From: a virus
Virus record (IMG/VR): IMGVR_UViG_3300036978_000319
Span: 1 to 64,000 of that record
Length of the DNA stretch: 64,000 bases
Strand: one strand, 5' to 3'
Part shown: positions 6,068 to 39,122 of the stretch, in pieces
How the letters are laid out: each line of letters begins with the position of its first letter
Position numbering within the stretch: position 1 is the stretch's first letter
Program-made: the position numbers and the translations under genes
The notes under the pieces: model-generated
What the model was told of the DNA's origin: nothing
The model's input: only the letters and a program-made list of their open reading frames with translations
Databases searched by the model: none

Positions 6068-7210
6068 ATGCAATTTTTAAGTCAACAAGTTTTCAATGAA
6101 CGCGCACAAGTGGCCGCTACAACAACACCGATTCGTAAGAAGCTCACCTTCTCCGAACTATCAATCGTCGGTGCTGACCGAATCATGGTGGACGGTCAAT
6201 CAATTCAAATAACAGAGGCTGGGTTTAAGTCCCTTCTTGGACGTCTTAGAATCCCGCCGGCATTTGCCAAGAGATTTGGTGATGCCTGGGGTGAAGACGG
6301 ACTTAAGCAGCTACTTGAGATGGTGAAGGCCGGTCGTCTAGGTAAGACTGATCTTGAAGTGACCCTCTTGGCTGACCCAACTACCCGTAAAGTAGTTGAC
6401 TTCCTTCCCTCAACTGCAGCTCATATCTCAAATCAGAGCTTTGTTGAATTTGCTACTCGTATCATCGACCAATGGGGTCTTAACCCTACCCACTTTGGAA
6501 CAGACCCTCTCGGTGGAGTTCAGATCAATACTCTACATGATAGTCATGTGTTTAAGATCCCTGGTCTCACTGATGAAACCTTTAGAGCAGGCGTAAGTTT
6601 TTCTAACACGCCACAGCGTGGTCTTGAGGTGGTTCCCTTTACAGAACGTACTATCTGTGCAAATGGTATGATTATTCGTCTTGCTGATGATACGTTCCAA
6701 CTTAATCAGTTAACGCCTGATAAGATTAATGAGTTTAATGAAAGAATGTCTGATGCAGCCTATCTTGGCTTTCAGTCTCCCTCGCTGATTGAAAAGATCA
6801 GAAGAGCAAATGTCACCACTGCTAGTCTACTTGAGGTAAACCATGCAGCTATGACAATCCTTAATTCAAATAAGGGTATGAGCTGGGATCGCGTTAATCG
6901 TTACATCCCGGTTGACAGAATCAATCAGGCTTACTCAACGAGAGGAGTTGAGACTGAAGAGTTGTCAAAGGCACAAAAGCGAATTGCAAATAGTGGTATG
7001 ACAGTATGGGATGTTTGCAACGGTCTTACCAATTTTGCATCAAACGATCAGACTCAAATGACAGACTGGAGCCGCATGCAAGTTATGGGTGGTGCTGGCA
7101 ATCTTCTTAAGAAGGCTTTCTTTGATCGTGAAGCTGTTATTGGAGTAGATCCATTTGGAGGAGATCGTATACTTACAAATCGTCAAGCCGCAATTGCCCG
7201 CGGTGAATAA
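6068..7210 (+). CDS. DUF932-like phage protein
   Basis: The 380-residue product is soluble with no signal or membrane segment. The pattern GVSFSNTPQRGLEVVPFTERTICANGM (about residues 180-205) resembles the core of DUF932 phage/plasmid proteins, in which a conserved strand is followed by R-x-x-C-x-N-G. The C-terminal half is helical, with a conserved-looking MTVWDVCNGLTNFAS segment. DUF932 proteins are common in phages and plasmids and their biochemical role is not known. A strong terminator follows, so it ends its transcription unit. Confidence 0.6.
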   Translation: MQFLSQQVFNERAQVAATTTPIRKKLTFSELSIVGADRIMVDGQSIQITEAGFKSLLGRLRIPPAFAKRFGDAWGEDGLKQLLEMVKAGRLGKTDLEVTLLADPTTRKVVDFLPSTAAHISNQSFVEFATRIIDQWGLNPTHFGTDPLGGVQINTLHDSHVFKIPGLTDETFRAGVSFSNTPQRGLEVVPFTERTICANGMIIRLADDTFQLNQLTPDKINEFNERMSDAAYLGFQSPSLIEKIRRANVTTASLLEVNHAAMTILNSNKGMSWDRVNRYIPVDRINQAYSTRGVETEELSKAQKRIANSGMTVWDVCNGLTNFASNDQTQMTDWSRMQVMGGAGNLLKKAFFDREAVIGVDPFGGDRILTNRQAAIARGE

Positions 7211-7250
7211 GTGAAGGCAGGTTTGGTTGGTTATAGCTGGTTCGCCAGTG

Positions 7251-7284
7251 AGGCAGAAGGGGTGGTTCCCTTCTGCCTTTTTTG
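7251..7284 (+). terminator. Strong rho-independent terminator
   Basis: AGGCAGAAGGG (7251-7261) and CCCTTCTGCCT (7268-7278) form a perfect 11-bp stem with a 6-base loop. The tract TTTTTGTTTGTT follows. It lies 41 bp after the DUF932-like stop and insulates it from the AAA+ gene downstream. Confidence 0.93.
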
Positions 7285-7296
7285 TTTGTTGCTGAT

Positions 7297-7307
7297 GATA
7301 TATAAAT
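7297..7307 (+). promoter_or_regulatory. Late-type promoter box GATATATAAAT
   Basis: The box contains TATAAAT, close to the T4 late consensus TATAAATA, and lies 19 bp before the ATG at 7326 and just after a terminator. It belongs to the GATATATA/GATAAATA class listed before most virion genes here. Confidence 0.6.
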
Positions 7308-7325
7308 CAAATTAAAAAATAAAGA

Positions 7326-8666
7326 ATGAAACAAGTACTATCATTTAGCGAATGGGTTATGACGGAAGGCATGACCGCTGGCGCAACCGGGATTGTTGAT
7401 CATAAGCTTTCACAAGCAGCCGATGTCATTGCCTCGTTTATGAATCGTAAGACTGGTCTTGGCTTTGCACAGTTTCCCTTCATGGTTTATGTTGACGGTG
7501 TTGCTGGAATTATGTATTATAGTAGTAAATCTGACGCCGCGTTTAGAGTAGGCTCAGGCACTGCTGGTACACTCGTAGGCAGCCTAGATTGGTTGGATCA
7601 ATTTTGGCAAGACAGTAGCACATTCACAATCACAAGCGATGAGTTTTCAATTGTGCAGTTAGTGGGAGAGTTTGCTAGACTTGCTCTTGATAAGAAGGCA
7701 GTTGATGCTGCTTTACAAGAGAGTATACTTGTCGAGAGTAAGGATGGGCTTCTTACACCTGAAGAGATAAAGATCATCTCTCGCAAACTAGATAGCGGAG
7801 AAAGCGCTATGGCAATCAGTAAAAGTCTTGGGGTAAGCTACGGTCAAATTCTTAAGGTTAAAAAGGGTGTAAAGGTTAAAGAAGATCGCTCACCAGTAGA
7901 GCAAGAAAATGAAATGACTCTTGCTGATAAGGTCCTATGGATGGAAGAGACAATGGAAGATGTCTATGAAATTACACGCCGTGTTGCCGCAGGTGCTTTC
8001 AATAGTCTATTCATTAGCGGCAGAGCAGGTACAGGTAAGACATTTAGTGTTGAGCGTGCAATGCATGACGAAGGCCTAGATGAAGGCGAAGACTGGATTA
8101 AGGTTAGTGGCTCGGTTAGTACTATTATGATGTATAAAGCTCTATATGACTACCGTAATAAGACTCTTGTCTTTGATGATGCCGATGCAGTCTTCTCTAA
8201 TGAGGATGGCAGAAACATTCTTAAGGCAGCTCTTGATACTAAAAAGATTCGTAAGATCTCATATATGAAAAAACTTGGTATGCTATATGACCCGGTTGAC
8301 TTTAGAGACAACCCGGAAGGAGAATTCAATGCACTTGAGAGTGGCTTAATACCTAACCAATTTGAGTTTGCAGGTCGGGTTATCTTTATTTCAAACCTTT
8401 CTAAAGATAAGGCTGACCCTGATGGCGCAATTCGCAGCCGAAGCATTCTTATAGATGTTAACCCTGATGATGCAACCTTAATGGAGCGTATGCGTCTTTT
8501 GCTTCCACACCTTGAACCAAAGGAACTCCCAATTGCTGATAAGGAAGAGATCTATGAGTTTATGAAGCAGGCACGTGACATCAGTATGAGGACTTTCGTT
8601 AAGGCGGCTGGGTTTAAGCTGGCGGGTCTTCCTAATTGGAAGAGAATGGCTAGCAGGTATCTTTAA
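7326..8666 (+). CDS. AAA+ ATPase with HTH linker and capsid-targeting-like N-terminus
   Basis: The product has 446 residues. Residues 1-14 (MKQVLSFSEWVMTE) resemble the capsid-targeting peptides of T4 internal proteins. Residues 20-130 are an uncharacterised alpha/beta region. A helix-turn-helix-like segment at about 145-175 (ALESG-type AMAISKSLGVSYGQI) follows. The AAA+ module has Walker A GRAGTGKT (232-239), Walker B LVFDDADAVF (281-290), sensor 1 in VIFISN (N357) and arginines at 370 and 372. The ATPase could remodel a DNA or protein complex; the substrate is unknown. The late-type promoter fits a virion role. If the N-terminal reading is right, it may be packaged and delivered with the DNA. 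Confidence 0.8.
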   Translation: MKQVLSFSEWVMTEGMTAGATGIVDHKLSQAADVIASFMNRKTGLGFAQFPFMVYVDGVAGIMYYSSKSDAAFRVGSGTAGTLVGSLDWLDQFWQDSSTFTITSDEFSIVQLVGEFARLALDKKAVDAALQESILVESKDGLLTPEEIKIISRKLDSGESAMAISKSLGVSYGQILKVKKGVKVKEDRSPVEQENEMTLADKVLWMEETMEDVYEITRRVAAGAFNSLFISGRAGTGKTFSVERAMHDEGLDEGEDWIKVSGSVSTIMMYKALYDYRNKTLVFDDADAVFSNEDGRNILKAALDTKKIRKISYMKKLGMLYDPVDFRDNPEGEFNALESGLIPNQFEFAGRVIFISNLSKDKADPDGAIRSRSILIDVNPDDATLMERMRLLLPHLEPKELPIADKEEIYEFMKQARDISMRTFVKAAGFKLAGLPNWKRMASRYL

Positions 8667-9436: not shown

Positions 9437-11365
9437 ATGAGTCAGTCATACTCAGAAATTTTGAGCGGGGTTTTAGTACATCAATCATCTAATGAACTTT
9501 TTTATCAAGGAAACACCACTGTAGGCGCTAAATCAGTAACCAAAGAAGTTGTTGATACGATAGGTGCTGATCGTGCATCTATTTGGTTGTTTAACGAAGA
9601 CCGAAGTTCTATTATATTACAGCAGCTATATGTCAAAGCAGAAGATACTTTCTATCAAGACATTTCACTTCATAAGTCTGATTTTGAACCATACTTTATT
9701 GCATTGGAAGATGACCCAATCATTATCGCTAATGACGCTCAAACACATCCAGCTACTTCGTGTTTTCTTGAAGGATATCTCAAACCACTTGGTGTAAAGT
9801 CAATGCTCGATGTACCTGTTTGGTATAGAGGATCACTTATTGGTGTTATCTGTATTGAAAGTTTAACACTGCGTTCTTGGAGGACTGAAGAAGTTCATTT
9901 TACTCAAATACTTTCGTCTCTATATTCATTTGCTTATTCTGTTAAAGAATCCAACAAGTTATCGAGTCAAATGATAGAACAAGAAAAATTTCTCGATACA
10001 TCAGCAATCATTTCAATGGCTGATTCTAAAGGAAAGATAACTTATGTCAATCAAAAATTTACCGATGTCTCTGGTTATTCTTTAGACGAAGTTATAGGTA
10101 AAGATCATAATATAGTAAATTCTGGAACTCATTCACGAGAGTTTTGGACTGATATGTATAAGACAGTCGTTAAAGACAAACGTATTTGGAATGCTATATG
10201 TACTAATCGAGCAAAGGATGGATCTCTATATTATGTAGATACTTTCATTAAATGTGATTTTAATGAAACCGGAGAACTTCAAAGGTTTATGTCAATACGT
10301 CAGGATGTTACTGACATAAAGAGAAAGGAGATAGAGATATCCAACAGGATGAATGCTATTAATCGATCAAACGCTGTTATAGAATTTGATTTAGATGGCA
10401 ATATAAAATTCGCAAACGATCTTTTCTTGAGTACGATGGGATATTCTTTACATGAGGAACTTGTCGGTAAACATCATAGCATATTTGTTGAGGAAGGAGT
10501 AAAGGAGACTGAAGAATATGCAAACTTTTGGAATACATTAAGAGAAGGGCAGTTCTATATGGGTGAAATTACCCGAAAGAAGAAAGACGGTTCTTTAATC
10601 TATTTACAGGCAACTTACAACCCTATCATAGGAGCTGATGGAAAACCTTATAGAGTAATGAAAATTGCTACTGACGTTACTCAAAGCTACAATCAACAGA
10701 GGGAGATTGAAAAGAAGAACACCTATCTTGAGCACGCCGCAAAGATTCTTCGTCATGATATGCATAGCGGAATTAACACGTATATGCCTAGAGGATTGAG
10801 TTCATTAGAACGAAGACTATCTGATGAACAGGCAAAGGAACTTAAGATTGATGCTCCTCTAAGAATGATTAAGGAAGGTCTAAGACATACACAAAAAGTT
10901 TACAAAGGAGTTTATGAATTTACAAATCTCGTAAAGAAGGATGTAGTTCTTAACAGAGAAGACCTAAATCTTAAGGACATACTCATAGACTATTTGTCCG
11001 CGACCGCTTATCGTCCACAGGTTGATATATCAGACATTGGTGAATATAGTGTTAATGAAGCACTCTTTTGCACTTCAATAGATAATCTTATTCGTAATGG
11101 TTTAAAGTATAATGATAGTTCAACAAAAAAGATAAAAATATATCGTATAGATGATATACTTTATGTTGAAGATAATGGTAGAGGATTAAGCCAAGAAGAG
11201 TTTGATTACTTATCTAAGCCATATACTCGTAAAGAAGGACAGCAAGAATCAGGAACTGGACTTGGGCTTAATATATGTATTGCAATTCTTGAAGAACATG
11301 GCTTCTTAATAACATGTAGCAAACTTTCCGAGGGTGGTACCCAAATGAAAATAAAACTAAAATAA
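9437..11365 (+). CDS. Soluble hybrid sensor histidine kinase (GAF-PAS-PAS-HisKA-HATPase)
   Basis: The product has 642 residues. GAF domain at about 25-170. PAS 1 at about 185-297, ending with a PAC-like FMSIRQDVTDIKRKE. PAS 2 at about 305-420, ending MKIATDVTQSY. Dimerisation/phosphoacceptor helix with H440 in LRHDMHSG. HATPase_c with N-box SIDNLIRNGLKYND (N554), G1 VEDNGRGL (D579) and G2 GTGLGLNI (606-613). All catalytic boxes are present, so it should be active. There is no transmembrane helix, so it senses a cytoplasmic signal; the ligand is unknown. The receiver gene starts 12 bp downstream. Composition is visibly A+T-richer than the phage backbone, which suggests acquisition from a bacterium. 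Phage-borne complete two-component systems are rare. Confidence 0.92.
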   Translation: MSQSYSEILSGVLVHQSSNELFYQGNTTVGAKSVTKEVVDTIGADRASIWLFNEDRSSIILQQLYVKAEDTFYQDISLHKSDFEPYFIALEDDPIIIANDAQTHPATSCFLEGYLKPLGVKSMLDVPVWYRGSLIGVICIESLTLRSWRTEEVHFTQILSSLYSFAYSVKESNKLSSQMIEQEKFLDTSAIISMADSKGKITYVNQKFTDVSGYSLDEVIGKDHNIVNSGTHSREFWTDMYKTVVKDKRIWNAICTNRAKDGSLYYVDTFIKCDFNETGELQRFMSIRQDVTDIKRKEIEISNRMNAINRSNAVIEFDLDGNIKFANDLFLSTMGYSLHEELVGKHHSIFVEEGVKETEEYANFWNTLREGQFYMGEITRKKKDGSLIYLQATYNPIIGADGKPYRVMKIATDVTQSYNQQREIEKKNTYLEHAAKILRHDMHSGINTYMPRGLSSLERRLSDEQAKELKIDAPLRMIKEGLRHTQKVYKGVYEFTNLVKKDVVLNREDLNLKDILIDYLSATAYRPQVDISDIGEYSVNEALFCTSIDNLIRNGLKYNDSSTKKIKIYRIDDILYVEDNGRGLSQEEFDYLSKPYTRKEGQQESGTGLGLNICIAILEEHGFLITCSKLSEGGTQMKIKLK

Positions 11366-22839: not shown

Positions 22840-23418
22840 ATGATCATAGAGGCTCTTACATTTAAGTTAGCTCTCGACTTTACAAAATACTTACGTAAGA
22901 ATCGTATCTACCTGGCCGATGTCAAGCTAGACTTTTTTGACCGGTCAAGACATGAATATAGTGACTTCCTAGATTTGGCTGCCATGCAGGCATACTATGA
23001 TCAAAACTATGTTCCTCTTGACAACTGCCTGTTAGGCTCTCTTGTTGGCATTCAGTTCTTTAGGTCAACAAGTGATACCTATGATTTCCCAACTTCATAT
23101 AAGGCTGTTGACGTTTTAGGCAATGTGACAGTAAGCCCAGGCGCAGGCTTTGACCTACAGCGGAACGATCAGCGGACAGTCCTAAAGGATAGACAGCTTA
23201 CACTCCTACGTAACACAATTGGAGAGTACCTTAAGTTCTATAATGAGCTTAAATTCATCTATGTGACTGGTATATATTCACCCTGCTATGCAGAACCAGG
23301 TTGGTCAGAGAATACATGGTGGCTTAGGTCATTGAGAGAAACCCTAGTTAGCAGTAATAATCAGTCAAGCTTCCCGTATACAAACACCGTTGTACAGACA
23401 AAACCACCAGTCTCCTAA
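22840..23418 (+). CDS. Unidentified virion-associated protein (192 aa)
   Basis: The product is soluble. The N-terminal helix (EALTFKLALDFTKYLRKNRI) is followed by an aromatic-rich core (YDQNYVPLDNCLLGSLVGIQFF) and a Ser/Thr/Asn-rich end typical of virion proteins. A late-type box precedes it and it sits directly before the giant fibre gene. A role in fibre attachment or assembly is an inference from position only. Confidence 0.6.
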   Translation: MIIEALTFKLALDFTKYLRKNRIYLADVKLDFFDRSRHEYSDFLDLAAMQAYYDQNYVPLDNCLLGSLVGIQFFRSTSDTYDFPTSYKAVDVLGNVTVSPGAGFDLQRNDQRTVLKDRQLTLLRNTIGEYLKFYNELKFIYVTGIYSPCYAEPGWSENTWWLRSLRETLVSSNNQSSFPYTNTVVQTKPPVS

Positions 23419-23461: not shown

Positions 23462-26400
23462 ATGTTTAACCTTAGAGAATACATCCTATTTAGATTAGAG
23501 GAAAAGAGAGAGCTCTTTAACGGTGAAGTTGACACTAATTTTAGGATGGTGTCAAACCCATGGGTTGCACGCCGAGTCTATGAAGAGGGTAACATTGTCT
23601 ATCACCCGGTTGAGGTTGAGCCAATAACAGGTACCAATACAGGACCGCCTGAACAGCATCTTGCCTGGTGGAGAGCGAATAAGAGAACTACACAAGGTGT
23701 ATTCCTATTAGGTGAATGGGATCTCATTGGAGGCATTGGGACAGGCGACATTACTGTTCAAGGCGCCGATTCATTTGGCAAGTTCCTAGTCAATAGCACG
23801 GTCCCGGCTGTTTTTAATAGCGGATCGGATGCCCTAATAGAGGCACAAAACCCAAACGACACTCTTAAACTTGTGGCAGGCACTGGTGTTGCACTGCTAC
23901 ATGACGTCTCAACAAATAGCATTAGGATTGACAATCTAGGCGCACAAGGCGAGGTTAATCATGGCATTAACATTGGTCTGGGTCCACACGAAGATGTGTA
24001 TGCCGGACTAAGTGGCACTAATCTAAGATTTAAGGGATTCACTGCAGCAAACAGCGGTGGTACTATTCTAACAGTAAGTACGACTGGGCTAGACAACATT
24101 GAGTATGCTCTAAATGAGGGAGCCATTGACCTGGCTGCTCTTAATGGAGGCAGTCCTACTATGGATCTCCTAAGTGATGTTAGCTACACCGGACTAGCAA
24201 ACGGAGACCTACTTCAATGGTCAACAGGTCTGGGTACATGGGTGCCTATTGCAAGTGGTTCGGTTGGCAGCAGTCTGTTTGACCAGGACAGTGGAGTAGG
24301 TTCAACTCATAGGATAGGAACCAATCCTCCGGCAGTAGGCAACTATTCAACAATCAGCGGTGGGCAGAATAATCAAACTATTGGTAATTGGTCAACGGTG
24401 AGTGGTGGACAATATAATACCGCATCAGGCGATCGTTCAACTGTAGGTGGAGGTGTAAATAATACTGCGTCAAGCTGTTGTTCAACCGTAGGCGGGGGCA
24501 GATGTAATGTTGCGTTAGGTGATCGTTCAACCATAGGGGGTGGCAGTGGTAATACCGTATCAGATTGTTATTCGGTCATAGGTGGAGGTGTAAATAATAC
24601 TGCATCGTGTGGTGGTTCAACGGTAAGCGGAGGTAGCACTAACGATGCATTAGGTTGTCTTTCGGTTATAGGTGGTGGTGCATGTAATACTGCACTATGT
24701 GATTTTTCGGTCATAGGCGGGGGCTTCTGTAATACTTCGGTAGGCAATTGTTCAACCGTAAGTGGAGGAGCAATTAATATAGCATCATGCCTTTTGTCGA
24801 CAGTAGGTGGGGGCTTCAGTAATACTTCAGCAGGAGATTTTTCAACTGTAGGCGGGGGCAGATCTAATATAGCATCAGGCAGTTGCTCAACAGTAGGCGG
24901 TGGTTTGTGTAACACTGCATTAGGCTGTCAATCAACCGTAGGTGGTGGCAGACTTAATACTACATTGGGCTTAAGCGCAACGGTAGGTGGCGGGACTGCC
25001 AATGTGGCATCATGCACTTACTCAACGGTAGGGGGTGGTTTTTGTAGTATATCGACAGAGTGTTTTTCAACTGTGGGGGGTGGTGTGTTTAATACATCAT
25101 CAGGCTGTACTTCAACTGTTGGGGGTGGTGTGTGCAACACAGCATCATGTGCTGGTTCAACTGTGAGTGGTGGTAAAAATAGTTTAGCATCAGGTAATTG
25201 TTCAACTGTAGGTGGTGGTCTGTTTAACACTGCATCAGGTGATCGTTCAGCTGTAGGTGGTGGCACTTTAAATACTGCATCATGTGTTTTTTCAACCGTA
25301 GGTGGTGGCAACAGTAATGCTGCAGTAGATTATTCAACCGTAAGTGGCGGCAGTAGCAATACTGCATCATGTAGTTTTTCAACTGTTGGTGGTGGCGGAT
25401 GTAATACATCATTATGTTGTTTTTCAACAATAGGTGGTGGTTTACGCAATACATCGTCAGGCATTCTGTCATCGGTAGGTGGAGGGTTTTGTAATACAGT
25501 GTTAGGTTGTGTTTCAACGGTAGGTGGTGGTGTGTGTAATACTTCAGTAGGGTGTGCTTCGACAATAGGTGGTGGTTTTCTTAATATAGCATCAGGCTGT
25601 TTTTCAACTGTAGGTGGAGGCTTCTGTAATACCGCATCAGGCTGTCAGTCAACTGTAGGTGGGGGCTTCTGTAATACTTCGGTAGCCAATTATTCAACTG
25701 TAGGTGGGGGCGTACTTAATATAGCATTATGTAATTATTCAACAGTGGGTGGGGGCGAATGTAATAGCGCATTAGGCAATTGTTCAACTGTAGGCGGTGG
25801 CACTGTTAATACTGCATTAGGCTGTCAGTCAACAGTAGGTGGTGGTGCATGTAATACTTCAATAGGCTGTCAGTCAACAGTAGGCGGTGGCTTATGTAAT
25901 ACTTCAGTATGCTTACGCTCAACGGTAAGTGGCGGTTTTTGCAACACCGCATGCGGGGATTTTTCAACAGTAGGTAGTGGCGCATGTAATGACGCATTAG
26001 GTTGTTTGTCAACGGTAGGCGGTGGTTTATGTAATATAGCATCAGGCATTGGTTCAACCGTAGGCGGTGGTGCATGTAATACTGCATTGAGTGATCGCTC
26101 AACCATAAGCGGTGGTGCATGTAATACTGCATCAGAGTGTGGTTCCTTTATTGGTGGAGGGACGGTTAACCTGGCATCTGGGCTATGCGCAGTTATCGGT
26201 GGAGGTTCCACTAACACTGCATGCGGAGGATGTTCAACGGTAAGCGGCGGTTGCGCAAATGATGCAATAGGGGTGCTAGCCACTATAAGCGGTGGTTGTG
26301 CAAATACCGCATTAGGTAGTCGTTCAATTGTAGGTGGTGGTGAACTAAATATAGCATGCTGCAATTATTCAACTGTAAGCGGGGGCCGATGTAACACTGC

Positions 26401-28858
26401 ATCGGGCAATTGTTCAACAGTAGGCGGTGGCATTTGTAATACAGTGTCAGACAATTGTTCAGTCATAGGCGGTGGCGTACTTAATATAGCATCATGTGTT
26501 TTTTCAACTATAAGCGGCGGTAATAGTAATACCACATCGGGTTGTTTTTCGGTCATAGGTGGGGGCGCGCTTAATATAGCATCATGTGTTTATTCAACTA
26601 TTAGTGGTGGTGTGTGTAATACTGCATCGAATTGTCATTCAACTGTAAGTGGCGGCTGCCGTAATATCGCATCAGACGAATTTTCAACTGTAGGCGGTGG
26701 CACACTTAATACCGCATCAGGTTGTCACTCAACTGTAGGTGGGGGCGTACTTAATACTTCAGTATGCTTACGCTCAACGGTAAGTGGCGGTTTTTGCAAT
26801 ATCGCATGCGGGGATTTGTCAGCCGTAGGTGGTGGCGCATGTCATGACGCATTAGGTTGTTTGTCAACGATAGGGGGCGGTTTATCCAATACTGCATCAG
26901 GTGATAGTTCAATAATAGGCGGAGGCAGAAGTAATACTGCGTTATGCTGTGGTTCAACAGTAGGCGGTGGCATATTTAATACTACATCAGGTTGTCAATC
27001 AACCGTAGGCGGAGGTTTATGTAATATAGCATCATGTGATCGTTCAACTGTAAGTGGTGGAATTCGTAATACTGCATCATGCACTGCTTCCACGGTAAGT
27101 GGTGGTTATTGTAACATATCATCAGAAATTGCTTCCTTTATTGGTGGAGGGACGCTTAACCTGGCATCTGGGCTATGTGCAGTTGTTGGGGGAGGTTCTA
27201 ATAACACTGCGTGCGGAGGATGTTCAACGGTAAGTGGGGGTTGCGCGAATGATGCCTTAGGGTTTGTAGCCACTATAAGCGGTGGTTGTGCAAATACCGC
27301 ATTAGGTACTTTGTCAGCAGTAGGTGGTGGTCAGCTGAATACCACATCAGGCTGTCAGTCAACAGTAGGCGGTGGCAGATGTAATACTGTATTCGGCTGT
27401 TGTTCAACTATAGGCGGTGGTCGCACTAACATTATAGATAGCAGCGATGCAACAATTGCAGGTGGTGCATGTAACTTGATAGAAGAAATCACTGGGCTGC
27501 TTGCAACAGGTTCCTTTATTGGAGGTGGTGTGAGTAATACGGTATCATGCTATTATTCAACTATAAGTGGGGGTAATTTTAATACAGCATCAGGCGCAGG
27601 TTCAACTATAGGTGGTGGCGTGTTCAATGCCGCATCAGACGCAGTTTCAACTATAAGTGGTGGTGCGTGCAATGCGGCATCAGGACCTGTGTCAACGGTA
27701 GGTGGCGGTTTTTGTAATATCGCATCTGGTAATGCTTCATTTATTGGAGGTGGCGATTGTAATAGAGCATTAGGTTGTAGGTCAACTGTGGGGGGTGGCG
27801 ATTGTAATAGAGCATTAGGTGATTGTTCAGCTGTGGGGGGTGGGTGCCGTAATACTGCATCATGTTCATATTCAACTATAGGCGGGGGTATGTGTAATAT
27901 CGCAAAAGGTGATTGTTCAACCGTAGGTGGCGGTGTTTCTAATACTGCATTATGTTTATATTCAACTGTAGGCGGTGGCCAACGTAATACCGCATGCTGT
28001 ATCTCTTCAACTATAAGTGGTGGCCAATGTAATACCATATTAAGAGAATGCGGAACTATTGGGGGTGGGTGCTGTAATACGATAATAAATGTATGTTACT
28101 CAACGATTGGAGGTGGCATATGTAATACTATAAGTTGTGGTAAAGCTGGATCTGTGATAGGTGGTGGTGGCAAGAATACCGTATCAGAGGGTTTTGCAAC
28201 AATAAGCGGAGGCGCGCTTAATATAGCATCAGGTAGTGTATCAACCATAAGTGGTGGCCAACGTAATACCGCATGCGGGACTTCTTCCACCGTGGGTGGT
28301 GGGGAAATTAACCTTGCATGTGGTGGGTTTTCAACAGTAGGTGGTGGTGTGTGTAATACCGCATCGGGTGCTAGTTCGGTAATAGGTGGTGGCCAGTGTA
28401 ATACTGCATGCGCGTGTAATCTTCCAACTATAGGTGGTGGTTTTCGTAATATCGTATCAAGTGATTGGGGAACAATAGGCGGTGGTTGTAGTAACATTGT
28501 AGATAGCGATTACGCAGTCATTGCAGGTGGCCAATTAAATATGATAGAAGACATTACTGGATGTCCTGCAACAGGTTCCTTTATTGGCGGAGGGTCATGT
28601 AATACCGCATGTGCATGCTATTCAAGTATTTTGGGTGGCCGAAATAATACAGCATGCCATAATAGCTCTCACATCGTTGGGGAGTGCATCACAACTAGGT
28701 ATAGCTGCACAACTCATATTAACTGTCTAAACTTTAAGTGTATTGTGTCACATTGCGGTAATGCATGTGCAGTGGCTGCAGGACTACCAGTCGGTCAAGT
28801 TTACCTAAGTACAGAATGCGCAGGATTCCCTGCATTTTTAACCATTGTTGTACCTTGA
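23462..28858 (+). CDS. Giant cysteine-rich repeat tail fibre/adhesin
   Basis: The product has 1798 residues. Residues 1 to about 290 are a non-repetitive attachment part with phage-fibre features (GDLLQWSTGLGTWVPIA). Residues about 293-1735 are roughly 90 copies of a 16-residue repeat, consensus STVGGGxCNTASGCxx. This is the pattern of the YadA-head left-handed beta-roll of trimeric adhesins, where each unit forms one coil. The last 60 residues form a non-repetitive cap. Cysteine occurs once or more in most repeats, which is exceptional for a phage fibre. Adjacent coils would stack the Cys into ladders able to form disulfides or bind metal. Blocks are duplicated inside the gene. It is probably a receptor-binding or decoration fibre. 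Confidence 0.85.
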   Translation: MFNLREYILFRLEEKRELFNGEVDTNFRMVSNPWVARRVYEEGNIVYHPVEVEPITGTNTGPPEQHLAWWRANKRTTQGVFLLGEWDLIGGIGTGDITVQGADSFGKFLVNSTVPAVFNSGSDALIEAQNPNDTLKLVAGTGVALLHDVSTNSIRIDNLGAQGEVNHGINIGLGPHEDVYAGLSGTNLRFKGFTAANSGGTILTVSTTGLDNIEYALNEGAIDLAALNGGSPTMDLLSDVSYTGLANGDLLQWSTGLGTWVPIASGSVGSSLFDQDSGVGSTHRIGTNPPAVGNYSTISGGQNNQTIGNWSTVSGGQYNTASGDRSTVGGGVNNTASSCCSTVGGGRCNVALGDRSTIGGGSGNTVSDCYSVIGGGVNNTASCGGSTVSGGSTNDALGCLSVIGGGACNTALCDFSVIGGGFCNTSVGNCSTVSGGAINIASCLLSTVGGGFSNTSAGDFSTVGGGRSNIASGSCSTVGGGLCNTALGCQSTVGGGRLNTTLGLSATVGGGTANVASCTYSTVGGGFCSISTECFSTVGGGVFNTSSGCTSTVGGGVCNTASCAGSTVSGGKNSLASGNCSTVGGGLFNTASGDRSAVGGGTLNTASCVFSTVGGGNSNAAVDYSTVSGGSSNTASCSFSTVGGGGCNTSLCCFSTIGGGLRNTSSGILSSVGGGFCNTVLGCVSTVGGGVCNTSVGCASTIGGGFLNIASGCFSTVGGGFCNTASGCQSTVGGGFCNTSVANYSTVGGGVLNIALCNYSTVGGGECNSALGNCSTVGGGTVNTALGCQSTVGGGACNTSIGCQSTVGGGLCNTSVCLRSTVSGGFCNTACGDFSTVGSGACNDALGCLSTVGGGLCNIASGIGSTVGGGACNTALSDRSTISGGACNTASECGSFIGGGTVNLASGLCAVIGGGSTNTACGGCSTVSGGCANDAIGVLATISGGCANTALGSRSIVGGGELNIACCNYSTVSGGRCNTASGNCSTVGGGICNTVSDNCSVIGGGVLNIASCVFSTISGGNSNTTSGCFSVIGGGALNIASCVYSTISGGVCNTASNCHSTVSGGCRNIASDEFSTVGGGTLNTASGCHSTVGGGVLNTSVCLRSTVSGGFCNIACGDLSAVGGGACHDALGCLSTIGGGLSNTASGDSSIIGGGRSNTALCCGSTVGGGIFNTTSGCQSTVGGGLCNIASCDRSTVSGGIRNTASCTASTVSGGYCNISSEIASFIGGGTLNLASGLCAVVGGGSNNTACGGCSTVSGGCANDALGFVATISGGCANTALGTLSAVGGGQLNTTSGCQSTVGGGRCNTVFGCCSTIGGGRTNIIDSSDATIAGGACNLIEEITGLLATGSFIGGGVSNTVSCYYSTISGGNFNTASGAGSTIGGGVFNAASDAVSTISGGACNAASGPVSTVGGGFCNIASGNASFIGGGDCNRALGCRSTVGGGDCNRALGDCSAVGGGCRNTASCSYSTIGGGMCNIAKGDCSTVGGGVSNTALCLYSTVGGGQRNTACCISSTISGGQCNTILRECGTIGGGCCNTIINVCYSTIGGGICNTISCGKAGSVIGGGGKNTVSEGFATISGGALNIASGSVSTISGGQRNTACGTSSTVGGGEINLACGGFSTVGGGVCNTASGASSVIGGGQCNTACACNLPTIGGGFRNIVSSDWGTIGGGCSNIVDSDYAVIAGGQLNMIEDITGCPATGSFIGGGSCNTACACYSSILGGRNNTACHNSSHIVGECITTRYSCTTHINCLNFKCIVSHCGNACAVAAGLPVGQVYLSTECAGFPAFLTIVVP
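24341..28680 (+). repeat. About 90 tandem 48-bp coding repeats in the fibre gene
   Basis: The unit encodes S-T-V/I-G/S-G-G-x-x-N-x-A-S/L-G-x-x. Most units are 48 bp, some 45 or longer where a loop is inserted (near 27480 and 28550). Larger blocks are duplicated: sequence at 25911 recurs at 26766, and that at 26141 at 27131, with high identity. The two offsets (855 and 990 bp) differ, so units were gained or lost after duplication. Confidence 0.9.
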
Positions 28859-28929: not shown

Positions 28930-29817
28930 ATGGATTCTTATGCTATCTTCCACATTGAGGGAGGACTCGGTAAACACGTTGCAGCAACTGCAGTTGCAAA
29001 GGCAATTAAGTCAAACAATCCTCACCGCAAACTTATAGTAGTCTGTGCATGGCCTGAAGTCTTTCTTAACCTACCTTATGTTGACCGAGTGTACCGCATT
29101 GGTAGCACTCCCTATTTTTATAGGGACTTTATCAATGGACAAGACAGCATCATCTTTAAGCATGAACCCTATTTTACAACCTCACATATTCATAAGCAAA
29201 AGAGCCTAATCCAAAACTGGATAGAGCTCTATGGCATGCCTTACAACGGAGAGTTGCCTGACCTTAAGTTCAACTATCGCCAAGATCAGTTTGGCTTTAA
29301 TAAGTGGAACCGGAATATGCCAGTCCTAGTTCTTCATACCAACGGTGGACCGCTTCAGGGGCAAGCATATCCCTATACATGGACTCGTGATATGCCACCA
29401 CATATCTCTCGTGGATTGGTTGAAATGTTTAGGGACAGGTTTCATATTATTCAGATCTGCCGCGAAGAAGGCCAAGTCATTCCGGGTGTAGGCGAGGCTC
29501 ATTGGCAGTCTATGTCAAACATGGAACTCTTTTATCTAATGAAGATGAGCAATGCTCGCATTCTTATTGACTCTAGTCTTCAGCATGCTGCGGCTGCATT
29601 AGGAATGCCCTCAACTGTTCTCTGGGTTGGTACAAGCCCGGTTGTGTTTGGCTATGACATGCACACAAACATTGCGGCTGATTTAGGAGATGAGGTTCTC
29701 CTACCTGATAGCTATCTCTTTGACTATAGTTTTAATGGAGTACTCCATGAATGTCCAATGATAGACACTTTACGAATGTTTAACCTGCCGCAAATCGCTG
29801 CATCAATACCCTCATAA
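28930..29817 (+). CDS. Family 9 glycosyltransferase (heptosyltransferase-like)
   Basis: The 295-residue GT-B fold resembles ADP-heptose:LPS heptosyltransferases. The N-terminal IFHIEGGLGKHVAATAVAKA provides the nucleotide-sugar-fold glycine loop. LPYVDRVYRIG is typical of the first domain. The C-terminal RILIDSSLQHAAAALGMPS, followed by TVLWVGTSP, is the donor-binding signature of the family (D-S-x-x-x-H-x-A-A-A-x-G). It lies between the giant fibre and a sulfotransferase with coupled translation (TAATG overlap). The pair could decorate the fibre or another virion protein, or alter host surface sugars. Confidence 0.8.
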   Translation: MDSYAIFHIEGGLGKHVAATAVAKAIKSNNPHRKLIVVCAWPEVFLNLPYVDRVYRIGSTPYFYRDFINGQDSIIFKHEPYFTTSHIHKQKSLIQNWIELYGMPYNGELPDLKFNYRQDQFGFNKWNRNMPVLVLHTNGGPLQGQAYPYTWTRDMPPHISRGLVEMFRDRFHIIQICREEGQVIPGVGEAHWQSMSNMELFYLMKMSNARILIDSSLQHAAAALGMPSTVLWVGTSPVVFGYDMHTNIAADLGDEVLLPDSYLFDYSFNGVLHECPMIDTLRMFNLPQIAASIPS

Positions 29818-30635
29818 TGCCAGATCAAATCTTCTTTCAAAGTTCACTGCCTCGTAGCGGTTCAACTCTGCTGCAAAACATACTTGCACAAAATCCCAGT
29901 ATGTATGCAACTCCTACATCAGGTGTTCTTGAGCTTCTGTATGCAGCCCGGGCAAACTACAGTTCATCACCAGAGTTTAGAGCACAAGATAGCGATCTTA
30001 TGAAGCAGGGTTGGCTATCGTTCTGTAAGCAGGGCATGGAGGGATTTTATGAGGGAGTGACCGATAAGCGGTATGTAATTGATAAGAGCCGTGGCTGGGG
30101 AGTTCACTACGGCTTTCTTAATTCATTCTACCCTAACCCAAAGATTGTCTGTATGGTCAGAGACCTTAGGTCGGTCTTTTCTTCAATGGAGAAAAACTTC
30201 CGCAAGAACCCAGAACTAGACAGTGGAATTGTGAATCATCAAGCCATGACAGGTACTACCACCGAAAAGAGAATTGATGTGTGGGCCAGTGGACAACCTG
30301 TTGGTTTGGCTGTTGAGAGGCTACGACAAGTCTACACCGAAGGCAATAACAAGAATATGCACTTTGTTAGGTTTGAGGATCTTACGCAGAACCCACAACA
30401 CGAAATGAATAAGATCTATGACTTCTTTGGAATAGACAGGTACTCGCATGACTTTAATAATGTAGAGCAGGTAACTCAGGAAGATGACCAAGTATATGGC
30501 ATTTACGGAGATCATCAGATTAGAACACAAGTTAAACCAGTTGAAAATGACTTTCATAAGATTCTTGGACCGCATGCAAGTAATTGGATCAAAGATAACT
30601 ATGCCTGGTTTTTTAAGGAATTCAACTACTATTAA
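29817..30635 (+). CDS. PAPS-dependent sulfotransferase
   Basis: The 272-residue product has the 5'-phosphosulfate-binding loop at the N-terminus (SSLPRSGSTLLQNIL, residues 9-23) and the 3'-phosphate-binding region in PKIVCMVRDLRSVFSSMEKN. The conserved VIDKSRGWG and FVRFEDLTQNP complete the family features. It transfers sulfate from PAPS to a hydroxyl or amine, here perhaps on sugars added by the adjacent glycosyltransferase. Sulfotransferases occur in several marine T4-like phages. The start overlaps the previous stop. Confidence 0.85.
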   Translation: MPDQIFFQSSLPRSGSTLLQNILAQNPSMYATPTSGVLELLYAARANYSSSPEFRAQDSDLMKQGWLSFCKQGMEGFYEGVTDKRYVIDKSRGWGVHYGFLNSFYPNPKIVCMVRDLRSVFSSMEKNFRKNPELDSGIVNHQAMTGTTTEKRIDVWASGQPVGLAVERLRQVYTEGNNKNMHFVRFEDLTQNPQHEMNKIYDFFGIDRYSHDFNNVEQVTQEDDQVYGIYGDHQIRTQVKPVENDFHKILGPHASNWIKDNYAWFFKEFNYY

Positions 30636-36726: not shown

Positions 36727-38115
36727 ATGCCACTAACGGATTTAGCAGGTAGCTTTGGTGATAATCTGGGACAAATACCTGGAGTTAATGCAGTGGGACC
36801 TAAACCTAATGTACCTTCTGATTGGCAAACGATCCGAAAGAGGTTCATTAATGTCAATAAAAAAGCGTCCACATCAGGAAACGGTCTCACTGACATTGAT
36901 GATCCAACATATCTGGGTTTCACTCTTGTCTTTGACATTACAAGTCCCTTATTTAATGGAGCTACCCAGAATACGTCTGACCTATCCGTTTCTGGCAATT
37001 CAGTAGCGCAGCAGTCAGCCATAGGTTACCTAATAAAGGTAGGTGAAAATGCTCGTGCCGACTACTTAAGGGCATTTATCCAAGGCATCCAAGATATCAA
37101 TACAAGACGTCCCTATTATTGGCAAACTGTAGCTGGCGTAGACGAGGCATGGAAGTCACTGACGGCTATGGGGCCAGACCCCTATGTTGGATCTAAGGAG
37201 GGAGAGGGCATCACGATTGCATGTCTTGAGGCAATTGATCTCAAGATCACAGCCCTTTTTACTCTTTATAAGATGGCGGTGTATGACTCGGCATATAAAA
37301 GATTTGTTGTGCCACAAAACCTAAGGTATTTTGATGTTGACTTAAAGGTAGGAGAGATTAGACAGTTTAAGAGGACACTAAACCTACTAGGGTTAATTGA
37401 TCGAGGTAATCTTCTTCAAAACAATGATAATACAGCAGACGTTGTTGGTAGTAATGCATCGTTTGTCACATTTAGGTTCACTGATTGTTTATGGATACCT
37501 GAAGAGTGTGGTAAGGCGTTTGACTCGGTCTCAAACGTTGGAGGCGAAGTGGTAAGTACCTCGGTCAAATGGACATACTCAAATGTCATTATTGATGCCC
37601 AATTTGCAGGGTATGACAAAACTCTATTGGACAGCAGACAGCAGATCCCAAGCTCACTTAACTTTGCTGCACAGGCACTGCAGTTTGCAAAAGAACAGGC
37701 TGCGCAAGTTGCTCAACAGGCATTATTGGCTGCAAAAAATGCAGCTCAAAGAGCTGTCTTATCACTGGCACAAGGTCTACTCTTTGGTAATGTTCATGGA
37801 GGTTTTCAAAACTCTATTGCAAATATACTACAAAATCCTGGGGGATCTCTTGTCAATGCAACCGCTGGTGCGATTGGTGCAGCTATTCAGCAGAATGGTT
37901 CACGTGCCGATAGTGCTCCAATTGCACTGTCTGATAACATAATGCCCGAACCGCCGCCACTAGCTCGTTCTCTGCCAACCGACCGCATACAGCCAGCAGG
38001 TCGACAGCCAACCAATCGCGACGGCAGTGAGGTTAAGCAATTGTCTCCAACTAGAGCATTTGATGCGTCACCATCTGGACCACCTCCCCTACAACCTACT
38101 AAAGTACACGGATGA
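36727..38115 (+). CDS. Virion protein with tail-tube initiator-like region (462 aa)
   Basis: Residues about 150-215 include LKITALFTLYKMAVYDSAYK and VPQNLRYFDVDLKVGEIRQF, a helix-strand arrangement seen in baseplate/tube-cap proteins of large myoviruses. A long Ala/Gln-rich helix at about 315-350 (AQALQFAKEQAAQVAQQALL) could form a coiled coil. The C-terminus is Pro-rich and probably disordered. The start is 26 bp after the hub stop and the stop overlaps the spike start (ATGA). The gp54/gp48-like role is an inference from context. Confidence 0.65.
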   Translation: MPLTDLAGSFGDNLGQIPGVNAVGPKPNVPSDWQTIRKRFINVNKKASTSGNGLTDIDDPTYLGFTLVFDITSPLFNGATQNTSDLSVSGNSVAQQSAIGYLIKVGENARADYLRAFIQGIQDINTRRPYYWQTVAGVDEAWKSLTAMGPDPYVGSKEGEGITIACLEAIDLKITALFTLYKMAVYDSAYKRFVVPQNLRYFDVDLKVGEIRQFKRTLNLLGLIDRGNLLQNNDNTADVVGSNASFVTFRFTDCLWIPEECGKAFDSVSNVGGEVVSTSVKWTYSNVIIDAQFAGYDKTLLDSRQQIPSSLNFAAQALQFAKEQAAQVAQQALLAAKNAAQRAVLSLAQGLLFGNVHGGFQNSIANILQNPGGSLVNATAGAIGAAIQQNGSRADSAPIALSDNIMPEPPPLARSLPTDRIQPAGRQPTNRDGSEVKQLSPTRAFDASPSGPPPLQPTKVHG

Positions 38116-39122
38116 AGATAACCGCAAAGGAGTTTCAGCAGGACAATTTGACTGGCACACAGTGGGTTGGCAGTGTTGAAGACAATCAGGACCCTCTCTT
38201 TGAGGGAAGATGTCGTATCCGTGTATACGGCAAAATGGACCAGCGGGTTAACATAGAGGACCCTAGCAGTGCCTTTGTACTACCTACTGATAAACTGCCG
38301 TGGGCAACCCAAGCCACGGCTATGACTGGCGGTAGTGATAGCGGTGGAGGATCATTTAGCCCTCCTAAGCTAGGTGCAGTTGTTGAGGTGACCTTTGACA
38401 ACGGTAACCTATACTCTCCAGTCTATCATCACTCCCTTTACATATCCGATGATGTTAAGAGCGAGGTCCAAGACTCATATGAGAATGCACATGTTCTTGT
38501 CTATGACACTTCATTTGGCCAGTCGATTGACAGTAATGGACAAGTAAGCAATGATAGAGAGGGCGAAGGCATCAAGGTTTTCTTTACAGAGAGTAAGGGA
38601 TTTGTGATTGACTATGCAACTGGTGACGGGTCAACTGTCTTTATCCTTAAGCCGGACAATGCAGTTGAGATCACTAACCCTAATGGCGACAGTGTGGTCA
38701 TGTCTAATGATGGTACCATTAAGTTTACTCACTCAGGCACAGTGACCATTGATGCAGGAGCTGATGTTGAGATTAATTGTGTAAATGCAAAGATCACGGC
38801 TAGTGCTGATGTTGAAGTTAGTTGTGTCAATGCAAAGATCGCGGCTGATGCTGATGTTGATGTTAGCTGTGCTAATGCAAAGATCACTGCCGATGCCAAC
38901 GTTGATGTCAACTGCGCCAATGCAAAGATCACTGCCAATGCCGAGGCTCAAATAGACTCTCCTAAGATTAAATTAGGTAAGACTGCGGCTGAGGCCGTCA
39001 TTAAGGGTGATACATTTAAAGAGCTCTACAACAATCATATTCACCCAACACCGGTTGGTCCAACTGAAAAGCCAGCAGTTCCAATGGATGCTGCTCTTAG
39101 CCAGGTAAGCTCAACTGACTAA
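38112..39122 (+). CDS. 5: Tail spike/needle gp5-like, OB fold plus beta-helix, no lysozyme domain
   Basis: The product has 336 residues. The N-terminal OB fold (about 15-115: WVGSVEDNQDPLFEGRCRIR, then LGAVVEVTFDNGN) matches gp5/gpV/VgrG spikes. A triple-stranded beta-helix follows, with four 15-residue repeats (ADVEINCVNAKITAS and relatives, about 217-277). Near the end is NNHIHPTPVGPT, the HxH metal-binding tip motif of phage spikes. T4 gp5 carries a lysozyme between OB and helix; here it is absent, and wall digestion must come from another protein, for example that at 14474 or 8777. One Cys per repeat lines up along the needle. Confidence 0.85.
   Translation: MKITAKEFQQDNLTGTQWVGSVEDNQDPLFEGRCRIRVYGKMDQRVNIEDPSSAFVLPTDKLPWATQATAMTGGSDSGGGSFSPPKLGAVVEVTFDNGNLYSPVYHHSLYISDDVKSEVQDSYENAHVLVYDTSFGQSIDSNGQVSNDREGEGIKVFFTESKGFVIDYATGDGSTVFILKPDNAVEITNPNGDSVVMSNDGTIKFTHSGTVTIDAGADVEINCVNAKITASADVEVSCVNAKIAADADVDVSCANAKITADANVDVNCANAKITANAEAQIDSPKIKLGKTAAEAVIKGDTFKELYNNHIHPTPVGPTEKPAVPMDAALSQVSSTD
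38760..38943 (+). repeat. Four 45-bp repeats in the spike beta-helix
   Basis: The unit encodes A-D/N-V-D/E-h-x-C-x-N-A-K-I-T/A-A-x. Four complete units are followed by a diverged fifth. Each contributes one Cys at the same position. Confidence 0.85.

Follow-up and report, generated by a model that had tools for sequence, protein, structure and literature searches.

TibC glycosylates beta-helical autotransporter repeats, enzymes of the GT9/TibC type modify serine, and the BAHT enzymes are defined by a four-cysteine iron finger and an N-terminal beta-barrel of ~97 residues (PMC4358343). The viral locus described here shares with the TibC/AAH systems and their substrates TibA/AIDA-I an arrangement in which a repetitive beta-solenoid adhesin has its own GT9-like enzyme encoded next to it; their acceptor is serine, whereas we propose cysteine for the phage system, to which a sulfotransferase is added. 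For the shaft itself, the comparison is with the UspA1 head of Moraxella catarrhalis (PDB 3PR7), which has the same 15-residue, GG-containing layer and the fold predicted for the phage fibre. Layers of the UspA1 type comprise ~15 residues with a conserved glycine at layer position 8 and an extra glycine at 9, and beta-roll layers are 4.8 Å apart (PMC9543794). The fibre differs from UspA1 in being a phage gene product with no autotransporter anchor found, ~95 layers and 122 cysteines in its array. Protein S-glycosylation is known from few cases (PMC9877059). The S-glycosylated glycocins (sublancin, pallidocin) resemble what we propose in that a sugar is carried on a cysteine of a gene-encoded product with an adjacent S-glycosyltransferase, but they are small secreted bacteriocins, whereas here the product would be a 1798-residue virion fibre. 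Glycocin S-glycosyltransferases are of the GT2/GT-A type, unlike the GT-B enzyme of the phage, and we know of no GT9 enzyme that modifies cysteine.

We analyzed a window of 64,000 bases (bases 1-64000 of a 78,531-base IMG/VR virus contig) that includes myovirus baseplate genes and a long cysteine-studded fibre gene followed by genes for a glycosyltransferase (GT) and a sulfotransferase (ST). We are highly confident that the fibre is a beta-roll of the UspA1 type and belongs to a transferable fibre-GT-ST module. We lean towards the exposed cysteines being the acceptors of the GT (S-glycosylation), with the sugars then sulfated by the ST, while our confidence is evenly divided on the fuller proposal of a mobile phage module (cysteine-studded beta-solenoid shaft, GT9-like enzyme and ST) through which tail fibres would acquire S-linked, sulfated glycans along their length. 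The parts of the fibre gene and the baseplate genes are as follows.

23462..28858, + strand: cysteine-studded fibre gene, 1798 aa, 130 Cys
23462..24346, + strand: fibre N-terminal part (residues 1-295), 0 Cys, presumed virion-attachment module
24347..28621, + strand: array of 15-residue repeats (residues 296-1720), ~95 copies, predicted UspA1-type left-handed parallel beta-roll, 122 Cys
28622..28855, + strand: fibre C-terminal cap (residues 1721-1798), 8 Cys, terminus ...AAGLPVGQVYLSTE...LTIVVP
38112-39122: gp5-like hub/spike, myovirus baseplate gene
43512: gp6-like wedge, myovirus baseplate gene

Elsewhere in the window, positions 9437-11365 encode a putative phage sensor histidine kinase of 642 aa, which has PAS domains, a C-terminus like that of histidine kinases and many matches to sensor kinases (NCBIfam sensory_box, 1.4e-30). 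A long imperfect tandem repeat tract with units of 11-94 bases (e.g., TTTAGGCCATATC) lies at 1200-2700 within a stretch poor in ORFs that runs from ~1.4 kb to ~4.2 kb.

A cysteine-studded fibre with a predicted UspA1-type fold

The first-pass annotation had read the 23462-28858 reading frame as a 1798-residue fibre, four fifths of it repeats, and both points were confirmed (the array is 79% of the protein), whereas its 16-residue period is in fact 15 (87 of 93 spacings) and its count of about 90 repeats becomes ~95 copies. The repeat consensus is S-T-V-G-G-G-x-x-N-T-A-S-G-x-x. The enrichment in cysteine that had been pointed out is strong, at 7.2% of residues against a mean of 0.70% in the other genes of the window, and, as had also been claimed, most repeats hold one to three cysteines (74 of 87 in-register 15-mers). 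No Pfam family was detected in the whole fibre protein (E 0.01), nor any membrane anchor or other autotransporter domain, and no similarity to the array at the DNA level was found in the phage collection searched.

The N-terminus is common to other phage fibres, including that of the huge phage LR756500 (38% identity over 159 aa). In the closest relative (contig L004), the N-terminus is identical at 300 of 310 residues (97%) and the last 120 residues at 100 of 120, with ~36 repeats in the array between them as against ~95 in the window.

Sequence and structure comparisons agreed on the fold, supporting the earlier suggestion of a YadA-head-like roll in its 15-residue, UspA1-type form. The fibre matched UspA1 3PR7 by phmmer (1.2e-24), and an AF2 monomer model of a cysteine-rich, 210-residue array segment, built with 40 in-register relatives, reached a mean pLDDT of 96.4 and had the UspA1 head 3PR7 as its best Foldseek match in the PDB (E 7.6e-8, TM 0.82), followed by CbpF and BpaC. 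Repeat position 5 is glycine in 86/87 15-mers and position 6 in 87/87, a pair that corresponds, in the published layer scheme, to G@8 and to G@9, the latter being specific to UspA1 (PMC9543794). With this layer glycine pair and the beta-roll fold of the monomer model, the array is predicted to be a 15-residue, UspA1-type left-handed parallel beta-roll.

Cysteines in the regular 15-mers were confined to repeat positions 7 (8%), 8 (39%), 12 (9%), 13 (24%), 14 (28%) and 15 (17%), with none at positions 1-6 or 9-11. Mapping the register onto the same scheme, which assigns orientation by correspondence and not by measured geometry, places positions 1, 3, 9 and 11 in the chain interior, 2 and 4 at the trimer axis, and 7, 8, 10 and 12-15 in solvent (PMC9543794). 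On this mapping, cysteine is therefore restricted to solvent-exposed sites.

The downstream glycosyltransferase and sulfotransferase

Two enzyme genes follow the fibre, and conserved genes bound the cassette on either side.

28930..29817, + strand: GT9/heptosyltransferase-like GT-B glycosyltransferase (GT), 295 aa, presumed fibre-modifying enzyme
29817..30635, + strand: PAPS sulfotransferase (ST), Sulfotransfer_3, 272 aa, presumed to sulfate the transferred sugar
22840..23418, + strand: conserved gene just upstream of the fibre, left cassette boundary, kept in contigs L351-L354 and LR756500
30484..31167, + strand: conserved gene just downstream of the ST, right cassette boundary, directly following a cysteine-free fibre in sister phages (as listed, this ORF overlaps the ST; its true start is further downstream)

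The window GT scored 13.7 bits against Pfam Glyco_transf_9 (cutoff 22), with a weak match in 10 of 24 homologs (best E 4.8e-5), and had no sequence match in the PDB and none in plasmids. Its AF2 model (pLDDT 87.7) opens with a GT-B strand beginning at residue 3, and Foldseek returned GT9 3TOV (2.9e-12), WaaF (1.4e-10), WaaC (~1e-8) and TibC 4RAP (~1e-7), so that by its model the enzyme is a GT-B fold nearest GT9 structures. The LPS heptosyltransferases WaaF and WaaC and GT9 3TOV are thus the closest solved structures (E 2.9e-12 to 1e-8), although at 12-14% identity and with the GT9 Pfam score of the window enzyme under the cutoff; the context of WaaF and WaaC is LPS synthesis, whereas that of the phage GT is a fibre. 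As a dedicated GT for a beta-helical adhesin, TibC/BAHT is the closest working parallel, though two BAHT-defining features are missing: no cysteine is invariant among the 24 GT homologs, which removes the four-cysteine iron finger, and the 295-aa protein, opening directly with the GT-B strand, has no N-terminal beta-barrel domain.

The ST was assigned by Pfam (Sulfotransfer_3, 88.1 bits against a cutoff of 27). Its PDB matches are tyrosylprotein sulfotransferases and StaL, and it also resembles NoeE; the likeness to tyrosylprotein sulfotransferase covers the PAPS-binding part only. Given this likeness, tyrosine sulfation is possible elsewhere, though tyrosine is rare in the window array.

Cysteine studding tracks the glycosyltransferase

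A scan with a repeat pattern blind to cysteine recovered 91 viral arrays (1147 15-mers) with 0.50 Cys per repeat, of which nearly every one occupied an exposed position. The 36 arrays of bacterial or archaeal origin (315 15-mers) had 0.05 Cys per repeat and none at positions 7, 8, 10 or 12-14. Bacterial arrays of the UspA1 class thus have almost no cysteine, and none at most of the exposed turn positions, unlike the window fibre. The viral arrays themselves split into cysteine-free and cysteine-rich ones, and cysteine studding characterises a subset of the viral arrays and not the beta-roll fold as such.

Among 48 contigs with 15-mer arrays picked without regard to cysteine, every GT-bearing contig was cysteine-rich (22/22), whereas those without the GT comprised 12 cysteine-rich and 14 cysteine-poor ones (fewer than 0.2 Cys per repeat; Fisher p=2e-5), and contigs of at least 20 kb behaved alike (18 cysteine-rich and 0 cysteine-poor with the GT, 6 and 8 without it; p=2.9e-4). 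The same relation held on a second scaffold, a 17-residue repeat (NNFIGxxAGxxNTTGxx): 26 such arrays in GT loci had 0.5-1.75 Cys per repeat (one had 0.13), nearly all at turn positions, and five from loci without the GT had 0.00. In a separate cysteine-blind scan of 17-mers, the GT was present in 5 of 8 cysteine-rich contigs and in 0 of 36 cysteine-free contigs (p=5e-5), and in one of the five (L465) a highly diverged GT directly follows an independently cysteine-bearing array of a 17-mer subtype that is otherwise cysteine-free. Pooled, and with contigs treated as independent, 27/27 GT-bearing contigs had cysteine-studded arrays against 15/65 of those without the GT (p=7e-13). Composition does not explain the association, since the other ORFs of the loci had 1.0-1.2% cysteine in all classes. 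A point against our reading is that GT-bearing loci were more AT-rich (GC 0.36 against 0.47).

The association with the ST was looser than that with the GT. Three GT-bearing contigs (L147, L172, L200) have 0.78-1.25 Cys per repeat with no ST, and two cysteine-free contigs (L195, L215) have an ST-like gene and no GT. Phylogeny was partly controlled, by two lineage-matched contrasts, the contigs themselves being fragments. In sister phages (L351-L354) that share flanking genes with the window and have a 51-52% identical fibre N-terminus, the distal shaft is collagen-like (GxT/GPQG) with 0 Cys, and neither GT nor ST lies between the fibre and the next gene; distal shafts are thus exchanged wholesale on the same N-terminal domain. 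Contigs L471 and L030, with an N-terminal domain 81% identical and syntenic tail genes, differ in that L030 has a cysteine array, GT and ST, whereas the 17-mer array of L471 is cysteine-free and both enzyme genes are absent from this 50-kb contig. Two phage lineages thus exchange the cassette whole, and in both swaps cysteine goes with the GT. The cysteine-rich contigs lacking an ST and the ST-bearing contigs lacking a GT indicate that it does so rather than with the ST. The first-pass annotation had offered attachment points for sugars or sulfate as one use of the cysteines, and the comparative evidence of two scaffolds and two swaps strongly favours it.

We also weighed a reading in which both enzymes act on non-cysteine residues, be it of the fibre or of a different target (the host surface, for instance), with cysteine correlated by lineage and serving a different role. 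The modification of serine by GT9/TibC-type enzymes (PMC4358343), the resemblance of the ST to tyrosylprotein sulfotransferase and NoeE, and the lack of cysteine arrays at some GT loci all speak for such an acceptor. Yet when the 20 residues were compared at exposed positions, cysteine best separated arrays with the GT from those without it (0.092 against 0.033, p=5e-5), while serine, threonine, tyrosine and asparagine did not differ between the two, and the association spans both scaffolds and both lineage-matched swaps. We consider a non-cysteine acceptor unlikely.

Stacking, pairing and codon variation of the cysteines

The cysteines had further been pictured as continuous ladders along the rod, either locked by disulfides after release or binding metal. 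We compared same-position cysteines in adjacent repeats with a permutation expectation across 202 distinct viral arrays (3616 repeats), and stacking was at the level of chance (262 observed, 245 expected, z=1.3). The window fibre gave 34 against 29.5 expected, its longest same-position run being 7 repeats at position 8. No positive association between cysteines within a layer stood out in the 202 arrays, in which cross-turn pairs were at expectation. With stacking and pairing no higher than chance, and cysteines scattered over several exposed turn positions, the ladder picture is unsupported. By comparison, the claim that the gp5-like spike shows one cysteine per repeat held: in its C-terminal repeats, Cys 223, 238, 253 and 268 are exactly 15 residues apart, a strict periodicity that the fibre does not have.

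Disulfides formed by oxidation of exposed cysteines after lysis, linking neighbouring layers or subunits and locking the rod, therefore find no stacking or pairing signal in these arrays. Geometry would allow them, as the 4.8 Å stacking of layers puts stacked cysteines near one another (PMC9543794) and the published layer description has turn A close to turn B of the neighbouring subunit, and in the window the pair 8/14 occurs slightly more often than expected (15 against 10.7). Odd and isolated cysteines are common, however, with exactly one cysteine in 41 of the 87 window repeats, and disulfides would leave the GT association unexplained; we regard such locking as improbable. The same link is left unexplained by binding of metal ions along the rod, which the first reading had suggested and for which the dense exposed thiols speak. 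With no recurrent multi-cysteine or cysteine/histidine geometry, placement random among turn sites and just 13 histidines in 1798 residues, metal binding seems to us very improbable.

Codon usage within the window array (24347-28621) bears on whether the cysteines have any dedicated function. The first and second bases of codons at repeat positions 7, 8, 14 and 15 are near-random, while TCA, GCA and other framework codons hardly vary and the third base is conserved as T (NNT) at positions 8, 14 and 15. The near-random turn codons can be read as diversifying selection on exposed residues. The NNT codons had also suggested DGR-like targeted mutagenesis, an idea that we rejected because the GCA and TCA codons of the same repeats lack the variation that adenine mutagenesis would require and because the fixed-T pattern is absent from other viral arrays. 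In a protein assembled in a reducing cytoplasm, cysteine could also be no more than one among the many residues that diversified exposed sites tolerate, as the pattern of near-random first and second bases with a conserved third base, and the avoidance of cysteine by secreted bacterial arrays, would allow. At 39%, however, cysteine at window position 8 is ~six-fold above uniform NNT codons, and in the same kind of cytoplasm 14 of 48 contigs with 15-mers are cysteine-poor and 36 of 46 tested contigs with 17-mers are cysteine-free, all of these without the GT. We hold it to be highly unlikely that the cysteines have no dedicated function.

Spread of the module in viral contigs

Dozens of diverse viral contigs have a homologous GT-ST pair flanking a cysteine-studded fibre, commonly starting 4-430 bases downstream of the array gene. 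When viral contigs were searched for the GT, at least 588 stretches encoding it emerged; among the matches listed, an ST was present in 42 of 51 distinct GT loci. Thirty distinct GT loci had 6 kb or more of upstream sequence, and 24 of these have a cysteine-studded array. Clustering by sequence sorted the N-terminal domains of 71 array proteins adjacent to a GT into 24 groups, from which it follows that the module has been combined with many fibres.

In the other six of those 30 loci, no cysteine-studded 15- or 17-mer array was found. Three of the six (L367, L371, L429) have other cysteine-rich ORFs, and a fourth (L428) has Kelch-like repeats (GACSNGTRGVFGGG) at 956-1942 and 7151-8005, each repeat with one cysteine and the GT in the same locus, possibly a third cysteine-bearing scaffold. 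In the annotated phage collection, the GT occurs once, in the single-cell marine virus AG-345-L05, with no cysteine array nearby. Conversely, 15 cysteine-rich arrays occur in contigs without this GT, which are fragments or have other enzymes; near two of them (L128, L208) is an HtrL_YibB-like gene, with a GlcNAc-transferase-like gene (PF11397) in L128 as well. The neighbours of the ST were also examined in the cyanophage isolates S-SKS1, S-SRM01 and S-SCSM1, whose ST is more distant (~30-35% identity); no GT or fibre is annotated beside it in S-SKS1 and S-SCSM1, and S-SRM01 has a glycan-gene cluster there.

A proposed route to a sulfated fibre, and what it would mean

Under our preferred reading, S-glycosylation of the exposed cysteines, the protein would be a modular myovirus tail or baseplate fibre whose conserved N-terminus attaches it to the virion and whose rod ends in a C-terminal cap. 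The rod would consist of ~95 stacked left-handed beta-roll layers, ~46 nm long at a rise of 4.8 Å per layer, with a conserved layer framework and diversified turn positions at which cysteine is unusually frequent. The GT9-like enzyme encoded immediately downstream would S-glycosylate the exposed, unpaired cysteines, and the PAPS sulfotransferase would sulfate the transferred sugar, yielding a long polyanionic, glycan-coated fibre. Computation establishes the ORF, its repeat, where the cysteines sit, the predicted fold, the families of the two enzymes, and the link of GT with cysteine on two scaffolds and in two matched lineages. We infer the action of GT and ST on the fibre, cysteine as the acceptor, the identity of the sugar, and the benefit, which may be adhesion, receptor mimicry, protection or solubility.

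In our literature searches, neither S-glycosylated phage fibres nor this GT-ST gene pair came up. To our knowledge, there is little documentation of virion fibres being glycosylated by enzymes that the phage encodes in linkage with the fibre, and cysteine-anchored sulfated sugars are a decoration not known on any virus. If the proposal is true, virions would be modified in a new way and enzymes of the GT9 type would have a new acceptor, both of them common among uncultured phages, and the repeat scaffold with its enzymes would become available for site-dense glycan display. The extreme cysteine content of a phage fibre could then be read as a signal for modification instead of for disulfides. 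Hundreds of environmental phages, counted from those at least 588 GT-encoding stretches, would coat their adhesion rods with sulfated sugars through cysteine, and the host recognition of such phages would be read differently from their sequence.
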